Source: Rhodospirillales bacterium
GTDB lineage: Bacteria; Pseudomonadota; Alphaproteobacteria; TMED109
DNA: 64,000 nt
Direction: 5' to 3'
Assembly: GCA_028824295.1 (NCBI GenBank)
Contig: JAPPED010000027.1
Span: 1 to 64,000 of the forward strand
The notes under the pieces are model-generated. The model was not told the DNA's origin, searched no databases, and was given only the letters and a program-made list of their open reading frames with translations. Positions within the stretch are counted from its first letter, which is position 1, and every line of letters begins with the position of its first letter. Of the stretch, positions 1-61,051 are shown piece by piece. Made by a program: the position numbers and the translations under genes.

Positions 1-2152
1 CCCCCTCGCGCCCGTCGAAGCGCGTGAGCGCCCCACCGCCCCACAGCGCGCCGAATCCGCTCTCCGCTCCGCCGGCCGAGAGCGAGAACGAGGAGCCCGT
101 CAGAAGCTCGCGCTCCGTCCCCGCGCGCGTCTCGAAGCCGAGCGCGTCCTCCTGCGCGCCCCTTAGCCACGCGGCAAGCGTGCCGGGCCCGGCGTCTGCG
201 TCGGCCGGCGAAGACTCCTCGCCCCAGGCCGCCGCCTCGCCGCCGACCCGTTGGCCGGCGAGGTTCACCTCCGCGCCGGGCGCCCGCGCCGCCCCCATCC
301 GGCCCTCCACCGCATCGATCACCTGGTCGGCAACCGTGCGCCCAAAGCGCGCGAGCCACCCAGCCGGTATCGGGTCGTCGTTGACGATGGTGCCCGTCGC
401 CTCCCCCCGGTTGATGGTGATGGTCCTCGACGCGTCGTCGCACAGTTCCGCGTCGCTGATCCTGACCCTCACCGTCTCCCCGCCGTCGTCGATCGAGTCG
501 TCGAGGATGCGGACGAATTCGGTCCACTCGGTGACCTCGGGCGGCTGCCACAGCGTCGACCTCGGACGCTGCAAGTAGTCGACCCCCTCGCTCGCCGTGC
601 CGGTGCCGAGGGTCTCGAAGTCGTAGCAGACATACTCGTCCAGCGACCGCGAGAGCTTGATGGTGAAGTGCAGCCAGCCGCCTCCCTCACTCCCCCACGC
701 GTTCTCGATCCGCATGTTCACGTCCGGCAACGGGGTCCTGCTGCTCGCGGGCGCGTCGATCGTCCCCGTCGCCTGCCCCGTGGTGATCGACAGCGGGCCG
801 AACTCGGCCCCCCGGGGTGTGATCACCCGCGCATTGGTGATCTCGACGTTCACCGTCTCGCCGGCGTCGGCGGCGGCATCCTCCATCAGCGCAACCGAAC
901 CCGGTCGCACCGTTTCCCCTGCCGAGAAGACGATCCGGTAGCTCGCCTCCTGGTAGTCGGCGTTCGCGGTGGCGGTGCCGCCCGAAACGGTCCGGAAGTC
1001 GACCGCGATGGTCGCGCTCACCGCCTTCGACAGGCTGACGTCGAAGGCGAGGTTGGCGGAATCCTCGGTGCCGCTGGTGTCGGCGATCGAGAGGCTCGGC
1101 AGGCTGCCGAGGTCGGGCGGCTCCGTGTCGGTGCTCAGGGTCAGCGCAGGCGAGCCGTCGAGCTGGCCCCCGCCCCCGGTGCACAGGGCGCCCTGCTCGC
1201 TGCAGGGCCGGTCGCCGCGCAAGGTGACGGTAACGGGCTCCGTCTCGTCGACCGGCGCCACCGTCATGCGCCAGTGATTGCTGTAGAGATTGCCCCCTGC
1301 GCGCTCCTTGTGGATGCGCTTCGCCTTGACCATGTGCCCGTTGGTCACGCTGAAGGCATGATCGCGCATCTCCCGGTGAGGGATGCTCACGCCTTCGGAC
1401 AGCCTGAGGTCGAACCGGTATCGCAGGGCGCCGTTGGCGAAGAGAGCTTCGGCGGAGTCCAGCGCCGGGATGAGGGGGGGTACCCAGTTGCTGCCCCTGA
1501 CGTTCATCATGATGGCCGCGGTAACTAAAGTTCCATTGAGCCTGAAGGCATTTTCGATAAGCCATCCTGCGGCCCCCGTCTCGGCATCGCTGTTCGTCAC
1601 TCCTATTTGGAAATCGTGCGTGTGGTTGCCGACGCCAACGATATTCACCAGGTATCCGGTATTCGGAAGCAATCTGGTATTTGAAGGTGCCGTGAAATCG
1701 TTCACGGCTCCTTCGTTCAGCGGGGACGGAGTGCTTAGCGTAGCCACCAGATCGCCCAGATTGTTGGTCTCGCTGCTGTCGAACCTGTGAACCGAAACCG
1801 TCATGGTTTCAGTGCTCGAAGAATTGTCCTCGTGGATGTGGATTCCGACGGAGCTCAGATCGTAGCCCGTCGTATTGCCACCGGTCGTAAATCGCTGCGC
1901 TATTCTGCCGGATGCAGAGTTTCCTGCGTTTATAGCGTTGTCGCGACCTTCACCTGCGTTGCTGACAAGCGTCGTTTGGGCCTGTGCGGCGGTGGCCGCG
2001 GCGAACAGCAGGGCCAGGGTGGCGGGCAGCGCGAGCACGAGGCCGGCGCCGGGGGGCGCGGCCCCGAAACCAAACGTCCTGAGTGCCGCCGCGACCGGGG
2101 ATGCCCGCGGCCGGACGCCGTCTTTGCGGAGACCTGACCGGAACACGCTCAC
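1..2152 (-). CDS. Calx-beta domain autotransporter, 3' end cut by window edge
   Basis: The minus strand stays open from about 2152 to base 2, giving 717 visible residues with no stop. A hydrophobic segment rich in Ala and Leu ends at AQAQTTLVSN around residue 60 and looks like a signal peptide. A choice-of-anchor-R-like beta domain follows (about 60-200). Two Calx-beta domains lie at about 340-465 and 475-590, with motifs such as VDFRTVSGGTATANADY. The linker GWLARFGRTVADQVIDAVE (about 597-615) and a barrel start containing ALWGGGALTRFDG are typical of autotransporter C-termini. The product is probably an outer-membrane-anchored surface protein. I chose GTG at 2152 because AAGGAAGG lies 6 nt upstream; GTG at 2146 is the alternative, and no in-frame ATG precedes the signal segment. 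The barrel continues beyond the window. Family assignment is from motifs; ligand and role are unknown. Confidence 0.85.
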   Translation of the reverse strand, partial: MSVFRSGLRKDGVRPRASPVAAALRTFGFGAAPPGAGLVLALPATLALLFAAATAAQAQTTLVSNAGEGRDNAINAGNSASGRIAQRFTTGGNTTGYDLSSVGIHIHEDNSSSTETMTVSVHRFDSSETNNLGDLVATLSTPSPLNEGAVNDFTAPSNTRLLPNTGYLVNIVGVGNHTHDFQIGVTNSDAETGAAGWLIENAFRLNGTLVTAAIMMNVRGSNWVPPLIPALDSAEALFANGALRYRFDLRLSEGVSIPHREMRDHAFSVTNGHMVKAKRIHKERAGGNLYSNHWRMTVAPVDETEPVTVTLRGDRPCSEQGALCTGGGGQLDGSPALTLSTDTEPPDLGSLPSLSIADTSGTEDSANLAFDVSLSKAVSATIAVDFRTVSGGTATANADYQEASYRIVFSAGETVRPGSVALMEDAAADAGETVNVEITNARVITPRGAEFGPLSITTGQATGTIDAPASSRTPLPDVNMRIENAWGSEGGGWLHFTIKLSRSLDEYVCYDFETLGTGTASEGVDYLQRPRSTLWQPPEVTEWTEFVRILDDSIDDGGETVRVRISDAELCDDASRTITINRGEATGTIVNDDPIPAGWLARFGRTVADQVIDAVEGRMGAARAPGAEVNLAGQRVGGEAAAWGEESSPADADAGPGTLAAWLRGAQEDALGFETRAGTERELLTGSSFSLSAGGAESGFGALWGGGALTRFDGREG

Positions 2153-2249
2153 TGCTCGCCTTCCTTGCGCCCGATGGCCGACGATGTCGGGCGCAACTTC
2201 TTGTCGCGGTTTCTCGCAGTCCTGAGCTTGCACCTTCGCCAGCGGCTGC

Positions 2250-2469
2250 CGCCGTCGAGCGCGACGCCCTCGTAGAGGCCCTGTGCGACCGACATGGTGT
2301 TGCGCACACCGAAGCCGAGCCGGCGCGAGGCCTCTTGCTGCAGGGTCGCCGTGGTGAAGGGCAGGACGGGATCGCGCCGGACCGCGTCCCGTTCGACCGA
2401 GGCGACGCGGAAGACGCCTGCGCAGGTGCGCTCCGCGACTCTTTCCGCCGCTGCCGCGCTCAGGCTCAT
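2250..2469 (-). pseudogene. DNA topoisomerase I (topA) internal fragment
   Basis: About 73 codons read as an internal piece of bacterial topoisomerase I. The diagnostic stretch is PFTTATLQQEASRRLGFG followed by NTMSVAQGLYEG, which in intact TopA lies shortly before the conserved TYMRTD motif. Here the similarity ends before that motif and the frame runs into unrelated sequence. On the upstream side the homology also fades into low-complexity Ala/Arg codons. The catalytic tyrosine region is not nearby, so this is a non-functional scrap rather than a small gene. It sits just upstream of the Calx-beta gene on the same strand and probably marks a rearrangement boundary. TopA identity is confident; the exact ends are not. 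Confidence 0.7.
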
Positions 2470-2940
2470 CGCCGCCGCCGCGGAGAAGGGGCGGCCCGGG
2501 GCTGCCGTCGGTGAAGCGCGCGCCGGTCCATGTCCCGCCCGGCCGCCGTGGCGGCCGTGTTGCCGAGTCCAAGACCCAATCCCTTAAGGGCTCGGGGGCG
2601 CAATTGGAAATGCCGATGCGGTGAATCTGCATGCCTGCCGAGCCATGCCGGCGGGGCGGGGCGCCGCCGCTTCGAGTGCCGCATTCGGAAGCGTCCCGGC
2701 GCCCCCGTCCGCCAGAACCCCCGGTCCCATAAGGCGAAGCTATCCGCGCGATAAGAAAACGCTCTTGGACACAGCTGGCGGCTGCCTACATGTCGTGATC
2801 AGGTACCCCTGCGCAGGGGTGACGATTAGGAGGCAGGCGGACGGCAGACAGCATGGGACACCCCGGGACACAGACATGGCAGCAAGCGGCCCGCCCGCCC
2901 GGGCGGCAGCCCGGCCGTCCGGAGCCCGGAGCGCGCTGAC
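2470..2940. other. Intergenic, no gene recognised
   Basis: This stretch lies between the topA fragment and the LysR gene. Short open frames exist on both strands, but none resembles a known protein or has a convincing ribosome site. It should contain the promoter of the LysR gene, although I could not pick clear -35 and -10 boxes. Confidence 0.4.
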
Positions 2941-3861
2941 ATGTTCGAGCGGCGCAGCGACCTGGTCCGGCTCCTGGCCGTCGCCGATGCGAAGCGGATC
3001 GTCACCGCCGCCGACCGGCTCGCCATAACCCAGCCGGCGCTCAGCCGCGTCGTCGCGCGCCTAGAGCGGGAGTTCGGCGGCAGTCTGTTTGAGCGCCTCC
3101 CCGCCGGCGTGCGCCCGACCCCGCTCGGCAACCTGGTGGTCGGGCACGCACGCCGCATCCTGCGCGAGATCGGGGACGGCGAGGAGGCAGTGGCGACGGC
3201 GCTCGCCGGACGCACCGGCCGGTTCCGCGTCACCGCCTCACCGGTGTGGATGCAGGCCGTGGTCACCCCCGCCATCCAGGCGTTCCACGCCGCCTTCCCC
3301 GAGGTCGAGCTGAAGCTCTGCACCGCCGCCTGGCGCGAGGGCGTACGGCTGCTCGACGACGGAAGGTGCGACCTGCATTGCGGCGGGATCGACACCGGCG
3401 AGGCCCTGCCGCCGCACCTCCGGCGCGAGCGCTTCCTGGACGTGACCGGGGGCATCGTCGCGGCAATCGGCCATCCGCTCCATGCCACCGGGCCGGAGCC
3501 CGGCGATCTCGACAGCTGGCCCTGGATCGATTTCGACGGACCGGCCGGGGCCGATTCCGGCCGGCCGGCCCTGGCAGTGATCCTCGACGAGCTGCGCCAA
3601 CTCACCGGCGGGCCGGGGCGTGCCGTCCTCCGCGCGGGCTCGGCCGGCCTGACGCTGCTCGCCGCCGGCCCGTGGCTCGCCTGGCTGCCCCTCGACCTGC
3701 TCGAACGGCTGCCCGGAACGCCACTCCGCGCGCTGCCAATCGCCTTCGGCCGGCGCCGCTACCGGGCCGGCTTCGTGGCCCGCCGCTCGGCCGAGGACCT
3801 GGAGCCGTTCCGCGCCCTCGAACAGGCGGTGCGCGACGCCGCGCTCGGGCGAAGCTCCTGA
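2941..3861 (+). CDS. LysR-family transcriptional regulator
   Basis: The 306-residue product has the standard LysR layout. An N-terminal winged helix-turn-helix at about residues 20-65 contains AADRLAITQPALSRVVARLE and FERLPAGVRPTPLG. The effector-binding domain starts near residue 95 with FRVTASPVWMQAVVTPAI. The length matches the family norm of about 300. It is a cytoplasmic DNA-binding regulator whose inducer cannot be read from sequence. LysR regulators often control a divergent neighbour, but here the minus-strand side carries only a topA fragment and a surface-protein gene about 800 bp away, so its target is unclear. Downstream it converges with cueR. Confidence 0.92.
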   Translation: MFERRSDLVRLLAVADAKRIVTAADRLAITQPALSRVVARLEREFGGSLFERLPAGVRPTPLGNLVVGHARRILREIGDGEEAVATALAGRTGRFRVTASPVWMQAVVTPAIQAFHAAFPEVELKLCTAAWREGVRLLDDGRCDLHCGGIDTGEALPPHLRRERFLDVTGGIVAAIGHPLHATGPEPGDLDSWPWIDFDGPAGADSGRPALAVILDELRQLTGGPGRAVLRAGSAGLTLLAAGPWLAWLPLDLLERLPGTPLRALPIAFGRRRYRAGFVARRSAEDLEPFRALEQAVRDAALGRSS

Positions 3862-51911: not shown

Positions 51912-54137
51912 CTACCGCCTGAGATCGAAACGGTCCAGGGTCATCACCTTGGCCCACGCCGCAACGAAGTCTTCCAGGAATGCTTCCTGTCCGTCGTCGG
52001 CCGCGTAGTGCTCAGCGACCGCACGCAGCTCGGAGTTGGAGCCGAAGATCAGATCGACCGGGGTCGCCGTCCACCTGAGCTCGCCGGTCGTGCGGTCACG
52101 ACCCTCGTATACCCCTTCGGCGGCCGACTCGGACCACTGCGTGGACACGTCGACCAGATTGACGAAGAAGTCGTTGCTCAGTGTCCCGGGACGATCCGTG
52201 AGCACGCCGTGCGGCGAGCTTCCGGCGTTGCAGTCCATCGCGCGCATGCCACCGACGAGCACCATCATCTCCGGGATCGTCAGGTTCAGGAAAGCTGCCT
52301 TCTCCACCAGCATGTCGACCGGCGAACGGGAGTTGCCGTCGGCGAAATAATTGCGAAATCCGTCCGCCTTCGGCTCGAGCAGGGCGAAGGAGGCGACGTC
52401 GGTCTGCTGCAGAGATGCGTCCATGCGCCCCGGCGCAAAGGGTACCGCCACCTCGAACCCGGCTTCTGCGGCGGCATGCTCGATGGCGGCCGCCCCGCCC
52501 AGGACGATCAGATCGGCGAGGGAAACCCGTTTGTTGCCCGATTGCGCCGTGTTGAATTCACGCCGGACGGTTTCGAGGGTCTGCAGCACGCGGGCCAGTT
52601 CTGCCGGATCGTTGGCAGCCCACCCGCTTTGCGGTGCGAGACGGATTCGCGCGCCGTTGGCACCGCCGCGCATGTCGGTCCCGCGGAACGTAGACGCCGA
52701 GGCCCAGGCGGCCCGGGTCAGTTCGGCACCCGACAACCCGGAAGCGAGAATCGCGGCCTTCAATGCGGCCGCGTCCTGTGCGTCGATCAGGACGTGATCC
52801 ACTGCCGGGATGGGGTCCTGCCACACGAACTCCTCGCCCGGCACGTCGTTGCCCAGATAGCGTGAGGTCGGACCCAGGTCGCGATGTGTCAACTTGAACC
52901 AGGCGCGGGCGAAGGCGTCCGAGAACTCGTCTGGATGTTCGAGCCAGCGCGACGTGATCTCCCGATAGGCCGGGTCCTCCTTCAGCGAAAGGTCGGTGGT
53001 GAGCATCATGGGCGCGTGCCGCGCGGCGGGATCGTGGGCATCCGGCACCCAGTCCGATGCCGCCCCGTCGGCGGGCTCCCACTGGACGACGCCGGCCGGG
53101 CTTCGCGTCTGTACCCAGTCGAAGGCGTACAGGTTCTCCAGGAAGTTGTGGGTCCAGGCGGCAGGACTGTGTGTCCACGCGCCCTCAAGGCCACTGGTGA
53201 TCGTGTCAGCGCCATGGCCGTCGCCGAAACTGCTCCGCCAACCGAAACCCTGCGCCTCGATGACGTCTCCCTCCGGTTCGGCACCGACGTAACGGGACGG
53301 GTCCGCCGCACCGTGCGCCTTGCCAAAGGTGTGCCCGCCGGCAATCAGCGCGGCCGTCTCCTCGTCATTCATCGCCATGCGGCCGAACGCCTCGCGGATG
53401 GCGTGCGCGGCCGCCAGCGGGTCCGGGTTGCCGCCCGGGCCCACGGGATTCACGTAGATCAGGCCCATCTGGGTGGCACCGAAGGGAGGATCGAGCTCCC
53501 CGTCTGCGTTGCGGCGATCGGCCGCGAGCCACTCGCCCTCCGGGCCCCAGTTCACGTCCTCCGGTTGCCAGGCGTCGATGCGCCCCCCCGCAAAGCCCAG
53601 GGTCTCGAAGCCCATCGACTCCATGGCCACCGTGCCAGCGAGGATCATCAGGTCGGCCCAGGAGATCTTGCGGCCGTACCTCTTCTTGATCGGCCAGAGC
53701 AGCCGGTGCGCCTTGTCCAGGTTGGCGTTGTCGGGCCAGCTGTTGAGCGGTGCCAAACGCTGCAGCCCGCCGTCCGCCCCACCTCGCCCGTCAATGGTTC
53801 GATAGGTGCCCGCGCTGTGCCAGGCCATGCGAATGAAGAACGGGCCGTAGTGACCGAAGTCCGCCGGCCACCAGTCCTGGGATGTCGTCATCAATGCTTC
53901 GAGGTCGGCCTTCACCGCATTCAGGTCCAGGCTTTCGAACGCCTCGGCATAGTCGAAGTCCCTGCCCAGCGGACTCGATGCCCGGGAGTCCTGGCGCAGT
54001 GGATCGAGGTTCAGCCGGTTCGGCCACCAGTACTCGTTGTCCGGTGCACCGCCTTGGGCAACTGCGAGACTGGCCGGCAGGCCTATCAATACCCCGATTG
54101 TCAGCAAGGCCGTGATAGATATCATTCGCTTCTGCAC
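51912..54137 (-). CDS. katG: Catalase-peroxidase KatG with export signal
   Basis: The product is a complete bifunctional catalase-peroxidase. The distal heme pocket is [20 protein letters not shown], with Trp and His. The Tyr of the Met-Tyr-Trp adduct is in [13 protein letters not shown], the Met in [20 protein letters not shown], and the proximal His in [11 protein letters not shown]. Unusually, an N-terminal signal peptide ([20 protein letters not shown], then VAQGG) precedes the enzyme, so it should be periplasmic, like KatP. I prefer GTG 54137: GGAG lies 9 nt upstream and it gives a Lys-Arg start before the hydrophobic segment. ATG 54152 and ATG 54167 are alternatives. It diverges from vapC with only 70 bp between. 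Confidence 0.93.
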
Positions 54138-54207
54138 GGTGACCGGCTCCATCAATAGTGGCGTCATCCCCGACGTAGCTTAGGCGCTGTCTGTCTGCTT
54201 GCAATTG

Positions 54208-54636
54208 ATGCGCCTCGTGCTCGATGCGAGCGTGACGGTCAAGTGGCTGGTTGTTGAGGAGGATGCGGACGTTGCGCGGGAACTGGCGACGAGCGGCCAA
54301 GACCTGCATGCGCCGCGCCAGATGGCTGCCGAGATCGCCAATGCTCTGTGGCGCAAGGCGCAGTCGGGCGAGATCGAACGTCGGGCCGCGGACATCTTGA
54401 TGACCAACGTATCGGATATGCCCGTGCACTGGGGCGTTGACGAACTCTTCGCCGACGACGCTATGCGTCTGGCACTGGCCCTCGACTACCCGGTTTACGA
54501 CTACGTGTATCTTGCGCTCGCGCACCGGATCGGCGCGACTGTGGTAACGGCGGACCGACGCTTCGCGGCGGCCGTTGCCTTGACCGAGCACGGCGAATCC
54601 GTCCTGGTGCTGGCCGACTACGCTGCAGCGCAGTGA
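54208..54636 (+). CDS. PIN-domain ribonuclease of the VapC type
   Basis: The 142-residue product has the PIN signature: Asp in RLVLDASVTVKWLVVEED, Glu in MAAEIANALWRKAQ, Asp in YPVYDYVYLALAHRIG and Asp in TVVTADRRFAAA. It should be an Mg-dependent RNase acting on specific RNAs, as VapC toxins do. The start at ATG 54208 gives MRLVLDAS; earlier codons are TTG. No antitoxin gene precedes it: the upstream 70 bp are non-coding and then the divergent katG begins. Nor does a VapB-like frame follow. It is either an orphan or a relic whose antitoxin was lost. Confidence 0.85.
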   Translation: MRLVLDASVTVKWLVVEEDADVARELATSGQDLHAPRQMAAEIANALWRKAQSGEIERRAADILMTNVSDMPVHWGVDELFADDAMRLALALDYPVYDYVYLALAHRIGATVVTADRRFAAAVALTEHGESVLVLADYAAAQ

Positions 54637-55118: not shown

Positions 55119-55240
55119 AACGCGGGTGGCACCCGGACCCGGACCGGGGTGATCCAGCGTGAGCGGGGTGGGGGTTCCGCTCTGCTAGCATGAAGTGCGC
55201 TTGGCCGTTCAGCAACGGCCGGCGCATGGAGGATTCGGCG

Positions 55241-57880
55241 GTGGCATTCGCTTTCGTTGAACGGCCTGATCGCGCGCGCGCAATCGGGGGGACTGGAATT
55301 CTCCGGTTCGTCGCGGTCTGCCTTGTCGCGCTGGCCATCGTCGGTCCCGAGACCCACCCCTCCCTGGCGCAAGCCCGGGAGGCCTGTCCGCCGCCGGCCG
55401 GCCTGCCTCCCCTTGCCGACCCGCCCGTGACAGCGCAGCAGGTCGAAGACGGCACCGGCAGCCTGAGGGATTTCGCGCTGGCCGCCAGGGAGCGTTCGAG
55501 GGAGCACGCCCGGCGAGCCACGACCGTGGAGCAAGGGGTCTATATCGCGTGTGTCGTGCGGCAGGAGGATGGGCCCTGGCGCTCCGGCTCCACCTACATC
55601 GTGAGCCTGACGCCCGACGGCAGGGTGTTCATTCATGCGAAGGACATGTCGCTGTCGGGCAGGTTGCTCGACCCGTTGATCTACCTGGAGATTCTTTCTT
55701 CCCTCGGCGTCCCCCCGGCCGAACTGGCCAACCTGGCGTCGCCCGATCCCGCTGCCCGCGACCGCGCTTTCGCCGCCGTGTTCGCCACGTTGCTGCAGGA
55801 GCCGGATGCCCCGTTTGACGCCACCGTCCCCGTTGCAGGACTCCGGCCGGGCATTCCCCGCGCGTTCGGTTACGCCAGCGTCTATGTCTCGCCGGAGTTC
55901 CGGTCGCCGATCGTGCTGCTCGCCGGATTCGATATCGACGCGTCGCACTTGACGGAGGAAGTGCTCGACTACGGAGATCCGACCATCACCGCCAGGGACG
56001 TCGTGGATCGTGAGACCCTGAAAGCCTTTGTCACGCAAGCGGGGAACTACTTCCTGGAGATCCAGGGAACCGGTGATCCGGTCGCGGCCTCAAGGGTCAG
56101 GACGGCCCTCAGGGATCCGAACGGGCCCTGGCGGCACGGCTCCGTGTATCTCTACGTCCTGGATACGGTCAGCAACATCATCACGTTTCACGGCGCGTTC
56201 CCGGACGATTGGGAGTATCGGCCGCTGGTGCCGACCGTCCGGGACGCGGTGACCGGCGAGTTCATCCTGCCGCAGGTCATCGCGGCGGCAAAGAGCAGCC
56301 CGGAAGGCGGGTTCGTGGAGTACTACTTCGACGACCCCACCGACGACACCGACAGCGCCGACATCCCCAAGGTCGGCTACGCCCGCGAGTTTGCCGGTCA
56401 ACTCCGTCGGCCGGACGGACACGTCGTCCCGATCCGGTTCATCGTCGGCTCGGGCATCTACCTGAGTGACCCCAACGTCGCCGCGGCGCGGCAGGACGCA
56501 GTCGTCGAGTCCATCCTGCCGCAGGTCATGCGCGCCATGACCGCGGGCACGGTCGACGCCGTCTCGGACCGCATCCAGCAGGCGACTTCCGGCGCCGCCG
56601 CGGCCACGGGGTTCAATGTCGGCGGCGCGGCGACGCTTCCCGATGCCCTGCGGACGCACGGACAGGCGCTGGGGAACGGCGCGTTCGACCCAGGCCACCT
56701 TCTCGCCGGCTCGTCCTTCAACCTGCCGCTCAATGCCGCGGATACTGGCACGACGAGCCCGATCGGAGACCTGACGCTCTGGGGGCGCGGCGACTACCGC
56801 AACATTTCCGGCGGCAACCCGCAGACCGTGGATTACCACGGCGACGTGGTGAGTGCCAGCCTCGGTGTGGATACCAGCCTGGGCACGAACCTGCTGGCGG
56901 GGATGGCCGTGTCCTGGGCACAGAGTGCCGTGGATTACACGGACTCGAACGCGGTGACCGGCGACATTACGACTACCCTGGCGAGCTTCCACCCGTACCT
57001 GGGCTGGCAGGCGCCGGGTGGCATGAACGTATGGGCCGTGGCCGGCACGGGCTCGGGGGAGATCGAGGTCGACGATGGCGCGGGGGGGAGCCAGGCAAGC
57101 GACCTGGCGCAGTGGATGGCGGCGGCCGGTGTCACCGGATCGCTGCTGGCCAGCGATCGGCTGATCGACGGCGGCACCACGGCCTTGCGGCTTAAGGGAG
57201 AGACTGCGTTTACGTGGGCTGAGGTCGACGGGGCGGAAACCCTCCGGAGCGGCAGGTTCAGGGTCAGCCGGCACCGGCTGATGCTCGAAGGGACCCATGT
57301 CCAGGCGCTCGCCTCGGGGGCCACGCTTTCGCCGTCGATCGAGGTCGGCGTGCGGACCGACGGCGGTGACGGTGAGACCGGCACCCGGATCGAGGCCGGG
57401 GGCGGCGTGCGTTATGCCGACGAGGCGACCGGGCTGACGCTCGAGGCCCGGGCCCGGACGCTGCTGGCGCCCGGCGGCGACTATGGTGAGTGGGGCGCGA
57501 GCGGGCTCGTGCGCGTCGATCCGGGCGCGGCCGGCGTGGGGCTGGCGCTCAGCGTGCGGCCGGCGTGGGGACGGACGGACGGCGGCGTGCAGCGGTTGTG
57601 GGAGACGGGTCTTGCCGGAAGTGCACCTGCAGCCGACCAAGCGGGCGGACGCACGCACGCGGAGATCGCCTACGGTCTCGCCGCGCCGCGCGATCTCGGG
57701 ATCGTGACGCCCTATGCAGGGGTCGGCCTCGCTGATACGGGCACGCGATCATGGCGCATGGGCGCACAGTGGCAGGTTGCGCCCGCCGCGCGCGTGAGCC
57801 TCGAGGGCACCCGGCGGGAGGCGGCCATGGATGAGGGGTCCGAGCACCGCCTCATGCTGCACGGTGCCTTGCGGTGGTGA
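55241..57880 (+). CDS. Autotransporter with Cache-like passenger domains
   Basis: The 879-residue product has a signal peptide (FVAVCLVALAIVGPE, to about 45). Two segments look like paired Cache sensor domains: GVYIACVVRQEDGPWRSGST at about 99-118, and NYFLEIQGTGDPV through DPNGPWRHGSVYLYVLD at about 260-310. After a short helical linker (VSDRIQQATSGAAAA), an autotransporter barrel begins at about 505 with GDLTLWGRGDYRNISGG. It ends in the aromatic LMLHGALRW expected for BAM insertion. There is no inner-membrane helix, kinase or methyl-accepting part. GTG 55241 is preferred because GGAGG lies 8 nt upstream; ATG 55190 and 55226 lack such a site. Cache domains bind small ligands in receptor periplasmic parts, so this arrangement would place one on the cell surface. 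Function is inferred. Confidence 0.85.
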   Translation: MAFAFVERPDRARAIGGTGILRFVAVCLVALAIVGPETHPSLAQAREACPPPAGLPPLADPPVTAQQVEDGTGSLRDFALAARERSREHARRATTVEQGVYIACVVRQEDGPWRSGSTYIVSLTPDGRVFIHAKDMSLSGRLLDPLIYLEILSSLGVPPAELANLASPDPAARDRAFAAVFATLLQEPDAPFDATVPVAGLRPGIPRAFGYASVYVSPEFRSPIVLLAGFDIDASHLTEEVLDYGDPTITARDVVDRETLKAFVTQAGNYFLEIQGTGDPVAASRVRTALRDPNGPWRHGSVYLYVLDTVSNIITFHGAFPDDWEYRPLVPTVRDAVTGEFILPQVIAAAKSSPEGGFVEYYFDDPTDDTDSADIPKVGYAREFAGQLRRPDGHVVPIRFIVGSGIYLSDPNVAAARQDAVVESILPQVMRAMTAGTVDAVSDRIQQATSGAAAATGFNVGGAATLPDALRTHGQALGNGAFDPGHLLAGSSFNLPLNAADTGTTSPIGDLTLWGRGDYRNISGGNPQTVDYHGDVVSASLGVDTSLGTNLLAGMAVSWAQSAVDYTDSNAVTGDITTTLASFHPYLGWQAPGGMNVWAVAGTGSGEIEVDDGAGGSQASDLAQWMAAAGVTGSLLASDRLIDGGTTALRLKGETAFTWAEVDGAETLRSGRFRVSRHRLMLEGTHVQALASGATLSPSIEVGVRTDGGDGETGTRIEAGGGVRYADEATGLTLEARARTLLAPGGDYGEWGASGLVRVDPGAAGVGLALSVRPAWGRTDGGVQRLWETGLAGSAPAADQAGGRTHAEIAYGLAAPRDLGIVTPYAGVGLADTGTRSWRMGAQWQVAPAARVSLEGTRREAAMDEGSEHRLMLHGALRW

Positions 57881-58916: not shown

Positions 58917-60335
58917 TCAGCCCCCGTCGGCCTCGGGCAGCACGACCGTCACCCGGAGCCCGCCGTCCACAATGTTCTCCAGCTGGATGTCGCCGCCGTG
59001 GGCGCGGACGATGCTCCGCGCAATGGCGAGGCCCAGCCCGGTTCCTCCCGTGTCGCGGCTCCGCGATTCCTCCAACCGGACGAAGGGCTCGAATACGCGT
59101 TCCTGCTCGCCTTCCGGGATGCCCGGCCCGGTGTCCTCGATGACGACCGCCACGCACTCGCCTTCCACGCGGACGACCCGCGCAGTAGCCGAACCGCCGT
59201 GAATAGCCGCATTTTCCAGTAGGTTCCTGAGCGCGCGACGGAGCGCCGTCGGTCGGGCCCCTACCACGATCCGCTCCGACGCCTCGGCCGAAACGGCATG
59301 GCCAAGGTCCGCGAGGTCGGCCACCACGCTGTCGACCAGCGCCAGCAGGTCCACCCTTTCCGTCCGTTCCCGCCGCAGGTCCGCCCGGACGAATGCCAGC
59401 ATCTCCTCCGTCATCCGCTGCATCTCGTCGAGCGCTCCGATCATCTTCCGGCGTGTCTCCGCGTCGTCGACCAGCTCGGCGTGCAGGCGCAGGCTCGTGA
59501 TCGGTGTGCGGAGGTCGTGCGAGACCGCCGCCAGCATGGCCATCCGGTCGCGGACATACCGGTCGAGCCGTTCGCGCATGAGGTTGAAGGCCCGGATCGT
59601 CGCCCGGACGTCCGACGGGCCGGCCTCGCGCAGGGATTCCACGTCCTCGCCCCGCCCGAGCTGGCTCGCCGCAACCGCCAGGTGCCGCATGGGCCGCGCG
59701 ATCCGGCGCCCCATGACGACCGCGACGCCGGCGGTACCGAGGGCCGAGAGGATGAATGACATCAGGAACGTCACGCCCCAAGGCGCGCCCGGCGGCGGCG
59801 CCACGGCGATGTTGAGCCACCGCCCGTCCGACAGCGCCACTGACGCCGCAAACCACCGGAGCCGCCAGGATGCGTGCCGGTCAGCATGATCATGACCGTG
59901 GAACCGGTCGTCGTCATCGTCGTCCAGGTGGTCATCGTGATGATCATGGTCCCCGTCGTCGTCGAAGCGCGCCCACACCGGCCCAACCCTGACCTGCCCG
60001 CGATCGACGCCAAGCGCGGCGGCCAGTTCGCGGGCAATGGCGGCGGCCGGTCCGCCGGCGCTCGCGGTGCGGACGAGCGGCTCGCCGGTCAGCGAGAACT
60101 GCGTCCGGCGCGTGCTGGCAGCCGTGACGACGGTGCCGTGCAGCGCGGCCGGCGTGTCCGTGAGCAACTGCGCCACGCTCGCCGTCCGGGTGATGACATT
60201 GTCGCGATGCGCATGGCGCACAGCCTCGACGCGTTCCCAGGCGAAGAGCGCGACAGCGACACCTTGCGCCACGACGAGAGTCAGGAGGAGCAGCAACGTG
60301 AGCTGGCCCGCAAGGCTGCGCGGTACCAGCCTCAT
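58917..60335 (-). CDS. Sensor histidine kinase with Asp/His-rich sensor patch
   Basis: The 472-residue kinase has TM1 (about 10-32), a periplasmic sensor, TM2 (about 187-208) and HAMP. The phosphoacceptor His273 is in MLAAVSHDLRTPITSLRLH. The ATPase domain includes NLLENAAIHGG, DTGPGIPEGE and GGTGLGLAIARSIV. The periplasmic loop contains a run of Asp and His at about residues 125-154 (FDDDGDHDHHDDHLDDDDDD and more), which looks like a metal-binding site. Start ATG 60335 overlaps the regulator stop by 4 nt. It probably senses a cation and phosphorylates the neighbouring regulator. The EF-hand gene beyond the regulator is the obvious candidate target. Confidence 0.93.
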   Translation of the reverse strand: MRLVPRSLAGQLTLLLLLTLVVAQGVAVALFAWERVEAVRHAHRDNVITRTASVAQLLTDTPAALHGTVVTAASTRRTQFSLTGEPLVRTASAGGPAAAIARELAAALGVDRGQVRVGPVWARFDDDGDHDHHDDHLDDDDDDRFHGHDHADRHASWRLRWFAASVALSDGRWLNIAVAPPPGAPWGVTFLMSFILSALGTAGVAVVMGRRIARPMRHLAVAASQLGRGEDVESLREAGPSDVRATIRAFNLMRERLDRYVRDRMAMLAAVSHDLRTPITSLRLHAELVDDAETRRKMIGALDEMQRMTEEMLAFVRADLRRERTERVDLLALVDSVVADLADLGHAVSAEASERIVVGARPTALRRALRNLLENAAIHGGSATARVVRVEGECVAVVIEDTGPGIPEGEQERVFEPFVRLEESRSRDTGGTGLGLAIARSIVRAHGGDIQLENIVDGGLRVTVVLPEADGG

Positions 60336-61051
60336 GCGTCTTCCACCTTGCCGGCGAAGCGGTAGCCGCCGCCCCATACGGTCATGATGAGCTTGGGATC
60401 TTTCGGGTCGCGCTCGATCTTCTTCCGCAGGCGGCTCACCTGGTTGTCGACCGCGCGCTCGAACGGCACGGACCGCCGGCCCTGGGTCAGGTCGAGCAGC
60501 TGATCGCGGGAGAGAACCATCCCGGGGCGCTCCAGCAACGCCACGAGCAGGCGGAACTCACCCGTCGAGAGGGGGGTCACAACACCCTCTTCGTCGACCA
60601 GTTGGCGCCGCCCGGTGTCGAGCAACCAGCGGTCGAACCGCCGGACGCCTGCCGACCGGGGCTCGCGCCCGGGCGGCAGGCTCTGCGAGCGCCGGATCAC
60701 GGCCCTGATCCGGGCCAGCAGCTCGCGCGGGTTGAACGGCTTGGTGACGTAGTCGTCGGCGCCCACTTCGAGACCCACGATGCGGTCGGTCTCCTCGGCC
60801 ATCGCTGTCAGCAGGATGATCGGCAAGCGCGTCGTCGCGCGCAGGTGCCGGCAGAGCTGGAGACCGTCCTCGCCCGGCATCATGACGTCGAGCACCACCA
60901 GATCGATCGCCGCCGCGCCGAGCACCCGGCGCGCGGCGATGGCGCTCTCAGCGATGCTCACGCGCATTCCGTGACGCTCCAGGTACTGCGCCAGGGCCTC
61001 GCGGATCTCCCGGTGGTCGTCGACCACGAGCACATGTGGAGTGGCTTCCAT
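60332..61051 (-). CDS. OmpR/PhoB-type response regulator
   Basis: The 239-residue product has a receiver domain with the acidic pair in HVLVVDDHREIREAL, phosphoacceptor Asp55 in LVVLDVMMPGEDGL and Lys in DDYVTKPFNPRELLAR. A winged-helix DNA-binding domain follows (STGEFRLLVALLERPG and VPFERAVDNQVSRLRKKIER, then WGGGYRF). It is the partner of the kinase that follows with a 4-nt overlap. Between its start and the divergent EF-hand gene lie 174 bp with direct repeats, the likely place for its own binding site. Confidence 0.95.
   Translation of the reverse strand: MEATPHVLVVDDHREIREALAQYLERHGMRVSIAESAIAARRVLGAAAIDLVVLDVMMPGEDGLQLCRHLRATTRLPIILLTAMAEETDRIVGLEVGADDYVTKPFNPRELLARIRAVIRRSQSLPPGREPRSAGVRRFDRWLLDTGRRQLVDEEGVVTPLSTGEFRLLVALLERPGMVLSRDQLLDLTQGRRSVPFERAVDNQVSRLRKKIERDPKDPKLIMTVWGGGYRFAGKVEDA

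Follow-up and report, generated by a model that had tools for sequence, protein, structure and literature searches.

The Gene and Its Surroundings

Within the window, by which we mean the whole stretch of 64,000 nucleotides analysed from contig JAPPED010000027.1 of a Rhodospirillales bacterium, the gene under study encodes a protein with the predicted organization of a secreted double-Cache autotransporter (Table 1). The start at 55241 taken by an earlier note on this DNA is an in-frame GTG within the longer open reading frame, in which an ATG is possible at either 55190 or 55226. A hydropathy scan of the whole protein confined the hydrophobic 19-mers to the signal peptide (residues 29–55) and found no other inner-membrane helix; this N-terminal hydrophobic stretch, followed by ...PSLAQ, qualifies on the basis of hydropathy as a Sec signal peptide, and a segment resembling ...LLVLAGVFSDARPALAQ is also present at the N-terminus of relatives from several phyla. 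No output domain was recognized in the protein by Pfam or NCBIfam, nor a protease domain by Pfam, and the earlier statement that neither an inner-membrane anchor nor a kinase or output domain is present was confirmed at this level, the signal peptide being the sole hydrophobic segment.

Table 1. Positions in the window of the gene and of the features assigned to its product.
Feature	Position	Strand	Basis
Whole gene, secreted double-Cache autotransporter, 896 aa	55190..57880	+	Open reading frame; alternative starts 55226 (ATG), 55241 (GTG)
N-terminal extension and Sec-type signal peptide, hydrophobic core at residues ~33–51, ...PSLAQ	55190..55372	+	Hydropathy scan
Cache unit 1, residues 78–261, divergent duplicate	55421..55972	+	hhalign against unit 2, column counts, AlphaFold2 model
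Cache unit 2, residues 264–427, sCache_2/dCache_2 type, ligand pocket kept	55979..56470	+	Pfam; alignment of relatives to solved carboxylate-binding Cache domains
Predicted carboxylate pocket of unit 2: Tyr320, Tyr322, His334, Tyr378, Phe380, Lys394	56147..56371	+	Comparison with PscD
Helical linker to the barrel, residues 428–520, PQVMRAMTAGTVDAVSDRI	56471..56749	+	Low-confidence model helix; conservation in barrel-bearing relatives
Autotransporter beta-barrel, residues 521–896, C-terminal Trp	56750..57877	+	PF03797 in 14 of 14 relatives

When the whole protein was submitted to Pfam, the Autotransporter family was recognized at residues 530–649 (E 9e-6, 26 bits), and the score of the window copy against PF03797, of 26–30 bits, meets what is required of a type Va barrel; the full barrel that had been described after the Cache units was in this way borne out, both here and in the barrel-bearing relatives. 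A search of the PDB with the barrel profile gave no relevant match, and the linker helix, at residues 367–406 of the AlphaFold2 model, was predicted with low confidence.

Upstream of the gene lie a catalase-peroxidase-like protein with a signal-peptide-like N-terminus (51912–54167, minus strand) and a PIN-domain protein (54199–54636, plus strand), and downstream a HAMP histidine kinase together with an OmpR-type regulator (58920–61051, minus strand), the HAMP sensor containing a His/Asp-rich stretch, DDDGDHDHHDDHLDDDDDDRFHGHDHADRH, that is suggestive of metal binding. None of these neighbours recurs near the relatives; moreover, across the loci compared we found no recurrent neighbour gene and no linked output or transporter gene, nor was any RNA element found near the gene.

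Cache Identity of the Two Passenger Units

Cache domains are regarded as input domains of membrane receptors. Two Cache-like segments had been pointed out in the passenger. The Pfam scores of the window protein itself were borderline: dCache_2 was matched at residues 301–402 of the whole protein with 23.7 bits (E 3.2e-5), and with 26.3 bits when the passenger was scanned alone, just under the gathering score of 26.5. Among the relatives, 55 of 58 matched dCache_2 (best 3e-28) and 47 of 58 matched sCache_2; it is because of those dCache_2 matches, and of the PF03797 matches in all the barrel-bearing relatives, that we consider the Cache and barrel calls as firm. The segments GPWRSGSTYI and GPWRHGSVYLY proved to be one element repeated in two tandem units, whose profiles, when compared with each other by hhalign, gave a probability of 93.5% (E 3.7e-8).

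The AlphaFold2 model obtained with the 58-row alignment had an overall mean pLDDT of 80.5, with values mostly between 82 and 98 across passenger residues 11–360 and one weak loop near residues 321–330; in that model both units consist of a long N-terminal helix and a PAS-like sheet. The absence of a Cache-like fold from the predicted structure had been set beforehand as a possible refutation, which outcome did not occur, and the presence of two Cache-like segments is upheld by the Pfam matches of the relatives, the hhalign duplication, and the PAS-like units of the model alike. Foldseek returned PAS-type and TlpA dCache matches to the model, although with TM-scores so low that this comparison adds little. 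A single-sequence AlphaFold2 model of unit 2, with a mean pLDDT of 52, was discarded. Neither the window protein nor the family profile had any match in direct sequence searches of the PDB, and solved Cache domains were reached only via two of the relatives, L058 and L017. Judged by these comparisons, unit 2 is a domain of the sCache_2/dCache_2 type and unit 1 is its divergent duplicate.

The Predicted Ligand Pocket

Relative L058 aligns directly to the chemoreceptor Cache structures 4K08, 2QHK, 4EXO, and 5G4Y, the last of these being PscD from Pseudomonas syringae. In PscD, propionate is bound through its carboxyl group by Tyr90, His103, Tyr143, and Lys156, with Trp92 and Trp145 stacked on either side of the ligand (PMC5062169). 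Via the alignment, the four bonding residues correspond to Tyr320, His334, Tyr378, and Lys394 of the window protein, and the two stacking tryptophans to the aromatics Tyr322 and Phe380; unit 2 shares with PscD and 4K08 both a like fold family and the Tyr, His, Tyr, Lys set. None of those four residues varies in any of the 58 relatives, across phyla, and the two stacking positions are aromatic in nearly all of the 58 rows. Since all four PscD-type bonding residues are present and invariant, we predict that unit 2 binds a carboxylate, an inference for which there are no binding data and which does not permit us to say which acid it might be; the conservation of the pocket may, instead, reflect folding. 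According to the column counts, unit 1 retains Tyr136 and His149, whereas the Tyr and Lys from the pocket's second half are missing. The cysteines C66 and C121 are conserved in 54–55 of the 58 relatives.

Relatives and Their Export Devices

An autotransporter barrel comes after the module in Proteobacteria, 'Delta' MAGs, and one member of the Binatia, and the Gemmatimonadota IRC1_bin_16 and SB0665_bin_8 have two or three modules before such a barrel. In Latescibacterota (some of them titled Gemmatimonadota) the module precedes a T9SS type A sorting domain, the TIGR04183 tail of those copies scoring 44.7 bits against a cut-off of 23. The copies from Chloroflexota (Dehalococcoidia) end in a JDVT-CTERM-like membrane tail, which at 18.4 bits remained under the cut-off of 27, and tails of other kinds occur in those from Acidobacteria and from two Binatota. 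SprA, the translocon of the T9SS, is encoded in all four of the tested Latescibacterota genomes with T9SS tails and also in IRC1_bin_16, and was absent from the genome of the window and from six other genomes tested. On the module tree, some branches of which are weak, at least nine switches between autotransporter and T9SS are needed, or 15 if all tail types are counted.

Four acidobacterial copies (L045, L057, L087, L089) have in common a C-terminal repeat, HFANG...SDVVLVNL..., of unknown function, which is possibly another surface-anchoring or matrix domain. Several units stand in tandem in some relatives; in a Bryobacterales MAG (L052:997-4032) the double-Cache module is followed by further tandem Cache-like units.

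These tails bear on the proposal of the earlier note that a small-molecule sensor is placed on the cell surface. That the passenger is exposed there remains an inference, one that is independently supported by the relatives in which the module is carried on a T9SS sorting domain; the term sensor, by contrast, is less well supported than that of binding module, in view of the fact that only unit 2 has an intact ligand pocket. Chemoreceptor domains of the sCache_2/dCache_2 type are periplasmic, flanked by inner-membrane helices, and coupled to a signalling domain that they drive, whereas the window protein has no inner anchor and no output and is predicted to be outside the outer membrane. In its signal peptide, passenger, helical linker, and barrel ending in an aromatic residue the protein resembles the type Va autotransporters (PF03797), but differs from the classical ones in that the passenger would be a globular, ligand-binding Cache pair, for which arrangement we found no counterpart in the literature searched; to our knowledge, no autotransporter with such a passenger has been described. 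With respect to the T9SS-sorted proteins (TIGR04183/FlgD_ig tails), a tail borne by the Latescibacterota relatives, whose genomes carry SprA, the window copy has a barrel in place of the tail and the same cargo module.

Distribution and Habitat

A scan of 84,980 species genomes yielded 50 loci, all of them in MAGs; the scan used exact peptide patterns from the window protein and so favours close relatives, with the consequence that distant ones may exist in other habitats. By the prefix of the MAG names, the loci comprise 14 RHO, 12 jk18x/p16x, nine SB06xx, five COS, three IRC, two CO36, one APA, one MPMV bin56, two Plut_88899, and one m_rhlh7. The jk18x bins are Ircinia symbionts (PMC9531527) and MPMV00000000 is from Aplysina aerophoba (PMC5649159). 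The remaining links are inferred, the sponge origin of most of the series resting on the name prefix: the RHO, COS, IRC, APA, and CO series fit by their initials the host species of PMC8163846, p16x was grouped with jk18x, and SB06xx probably stems from the I. ramosa project. With those two documented links and the inferred ones, at least 47 of the 50 loci come from sample series linked to marine sponges, and for the three loci of Plut_88899 and m_rhlh7 no sponge link was established. At this locus, three genomes from the genus of the window match jk18x, p16x, and SB0662 MAGs exactly, from which identity the source of the window is most likely an alphaproteobacterial sponge symbiont.

In surveys of genomes without habitat labels, the module was present in two of 277 genera of the window's class, in its own genome only among 398 genomes of its phylum, and in two of 400 from the Chloroflexota; strong matches numbered three of 347 in the acidobacterial phylum and 17 of 64 in the Latescibacterota. 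The family would seem, from these counts, to be rare outside the sponge-linked series, except in the Latescibacterota phylum, and a specificity for sponges is inferred. The combination is no singular occurrence, since it extends to a family with several export anchors that is apparently concentrated in sponge symbionts; nor did it emerge as a common family already described, an eventuality that had likewise been set beforehand as a refutation: the literature searched, which did not cover most subscription journals, contained no description of Cache with an autotransporter, T9SS, or PF08269 in sponges.

Proposed Horizontal Transfer, Possible Recombination, and Selection

Across some eight phyla the module is 47–77% identical, above the RpoB identity of the matching genome pairs. 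The identities to the genome of the window, for the module versus RpoB, were 77 vs. 68% for Boseongicola, 74 vs. 61% for the 'Delta' RHO1_bin_74, 71 vs. 52% for Latescibacterota, 66 vs. 60% for a gammaproteobacterium, and 57 vs. 53% for Dehalococcoidia. In the tree the window copy clusters with a Paracoccaceae MAG and the A. aerophoba bin56, and a second copy from the window's genome (L012) clusters with Boseongicola and a Nitrospira MAG; a single clade of the Pseudomonadota rows was rejected (p-AU 8e-58). The best reading of these comparisons is that the module has been shared horizontally among symbiont phyla. Mis-binning as the source of the cross-phylum pattern is unlikely in general, because several copies are on contigs of 200–530 kb and have tails fitting the export system of the respective genome; for the Nitrospira copy (L050), which stops at the edge of its contig and falls in the tree with Alphaproteobacteria, one of them from the same sample, it is possible. 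As to the route of transfer, a search of phage, plasmid, and viral records for the module gave no match.

The dN/dS values, of 0.02–0.42 in nine close pairs, indicate that the module is under purifying selection. Identity to the window protein also differs by region, L022 reaching 75% over the Cache part against 50% over the end of the barrel, a pattern suggestive of recombination between passengers and barrel ends.

Proposed Function

Our preferred reading, to which we assign a probability of roughly 0.58, is that of a surface-displayed, horizontally shared, carboxylate-binding module that aids in sponge recognition or attachment. The protein would be exported by Sec, and the C-terminal barrel would insert into the outer membrane, with the helical linker keeping the double-Cache passenger outside; the pocket of unit 2, kept from sCache_2-type receptors, would accept a small carboxylate, or else a group that bears one, while unit 1 would act as a spacer or offer a further surface for contact, and the protein has no signalling part. 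Each symbiont lineage would attach the shared module to a device of its own—a type V barrel, a T9SS sorting domain, or a membrane-anchor tail—and the sharing would most likely be due to the module's helping the bacterium to recognise some component of the sponge or to stay attached to it. The architecture, the duplicated Cache, the conserved pocket residues, the cross-phylum similarity above RpoB, and the alternative anchors are computed observations; the binding and the display are inferred from them, and the role in host recognition or attachment is a hypothesis with no experiment behind it. The more ambitious version, in which one exchanged double-Cache domain is a community-wide recognition factor for a carboxylate-bearing sponge molecule, displayed by whatever secretion system is at hand, we advance only tentatively, as a conjecture that could well fail.

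Of the three roles that had been offered for the protein—ligand scavenger, adhesin, or receptor signalling by cleavage—the data do not separate one from another, save for the evidence against the third. The main rival to host recognition or attachment is nutrient capture, by which a surface Cache would bind small carboxylates released in the sponge and concentrate them close to the cell for other transporters, without being a recognition factor. The PscD pocket accommodates only C2–C3 acids, a property that nutrient capture fits as well as host recognition does, and the pocket residues match those of acetate-, glycolate-, propionate-, and pyruvate-binding domains. Furthermore, a third autotransporter of the window's genome, located outside the window (L001, G000:C32:12273-12926), has a passenger resembling a periplasmic solute-binding protein/cyclohexadienyl dehydratase (5jos, E 3.5e-4) and may be a second binding domain of periplasmic type that is exported to the surface. 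We nonetheless hold this explanation to be unlikely: the loci compared have no linked transporter gene, a binding protein tethered outside the cell has no known way of handing its ligand over to a TonB or porin channel, and porins let small acids through unaided.

More doubtful still is a structural stalk or adhesin in which the Cache fold would be an extracellular building block, protein–protein contact would be what matters, and the pocket would be a relic. The loss of half the pocket in unit 1, the tandem units of some relatives, and the near-constant C66 and C121, as for a stable extracellular protein, are all compatible with such a role, but the invariance of the four ligand-bonding residues of unit 2 goes beyond what a relic would retain. 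That a bound ligand causes the passenger or a partner to be cleaved, and that the surface Cache in this way reports to the same or to other cells, is highly improbable, for even though transmission of ligand binding is the normal Cache role and a kinase/regulator pair lies downstream, neither a processing domain nor a linked output gene was found, the pair is not a recurrent neighbour, and an output common to the T9SS and membrane-tail forms is lacking.

In the window protein a Cache domain is used without any receptor and apparently outside the cell. That several phyla of sponge bacteria carry this one module on unrelated export devices, with a similarity above that of RpoB, argues for a strong shared selection in the sponge and suggests a shared tool for sponge life; this bears on the unresolved matter of mutual recognition between sponges and their dense microbiomes, and provides a testable candidate, with a soluble passenger, a predicted ligand class, and four residues to mutate. 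In sponge-associated Thaumarchaeota, surface Cache domains are enriched and were named as host-recognition candidates (PMC7848895); those domains are archaeal, are reported as a Pfam enrichment only, and are not established to be the present module. The transfer of other attachment genes has been reported in these sponge communities (PMC8163846), and the portions consulted of these two sources do not describe a module of the window type.

Further Copies

A second subfamily is represented in the genus by L017 (genome G001, 1054–3480), which has two canonical sCache_2 units and a barrel and is only 28% identical to the window protein; the genus would thus use more than one surface Cache protein. 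In five loci (L005, L013, L016, L050, L056) the contig stops at the conserved linker ...MRAMTASTVDAVS.RI or close to it, as though assembly had failed on paralogues whose barrel cassettes are almost identical, and copy numbers in MAGs are probably underestimated. In another genome of the genus (G003) the copy L010 contains only the first ~84 residues of the module, after which the frame is lost, as in a decayed copy.
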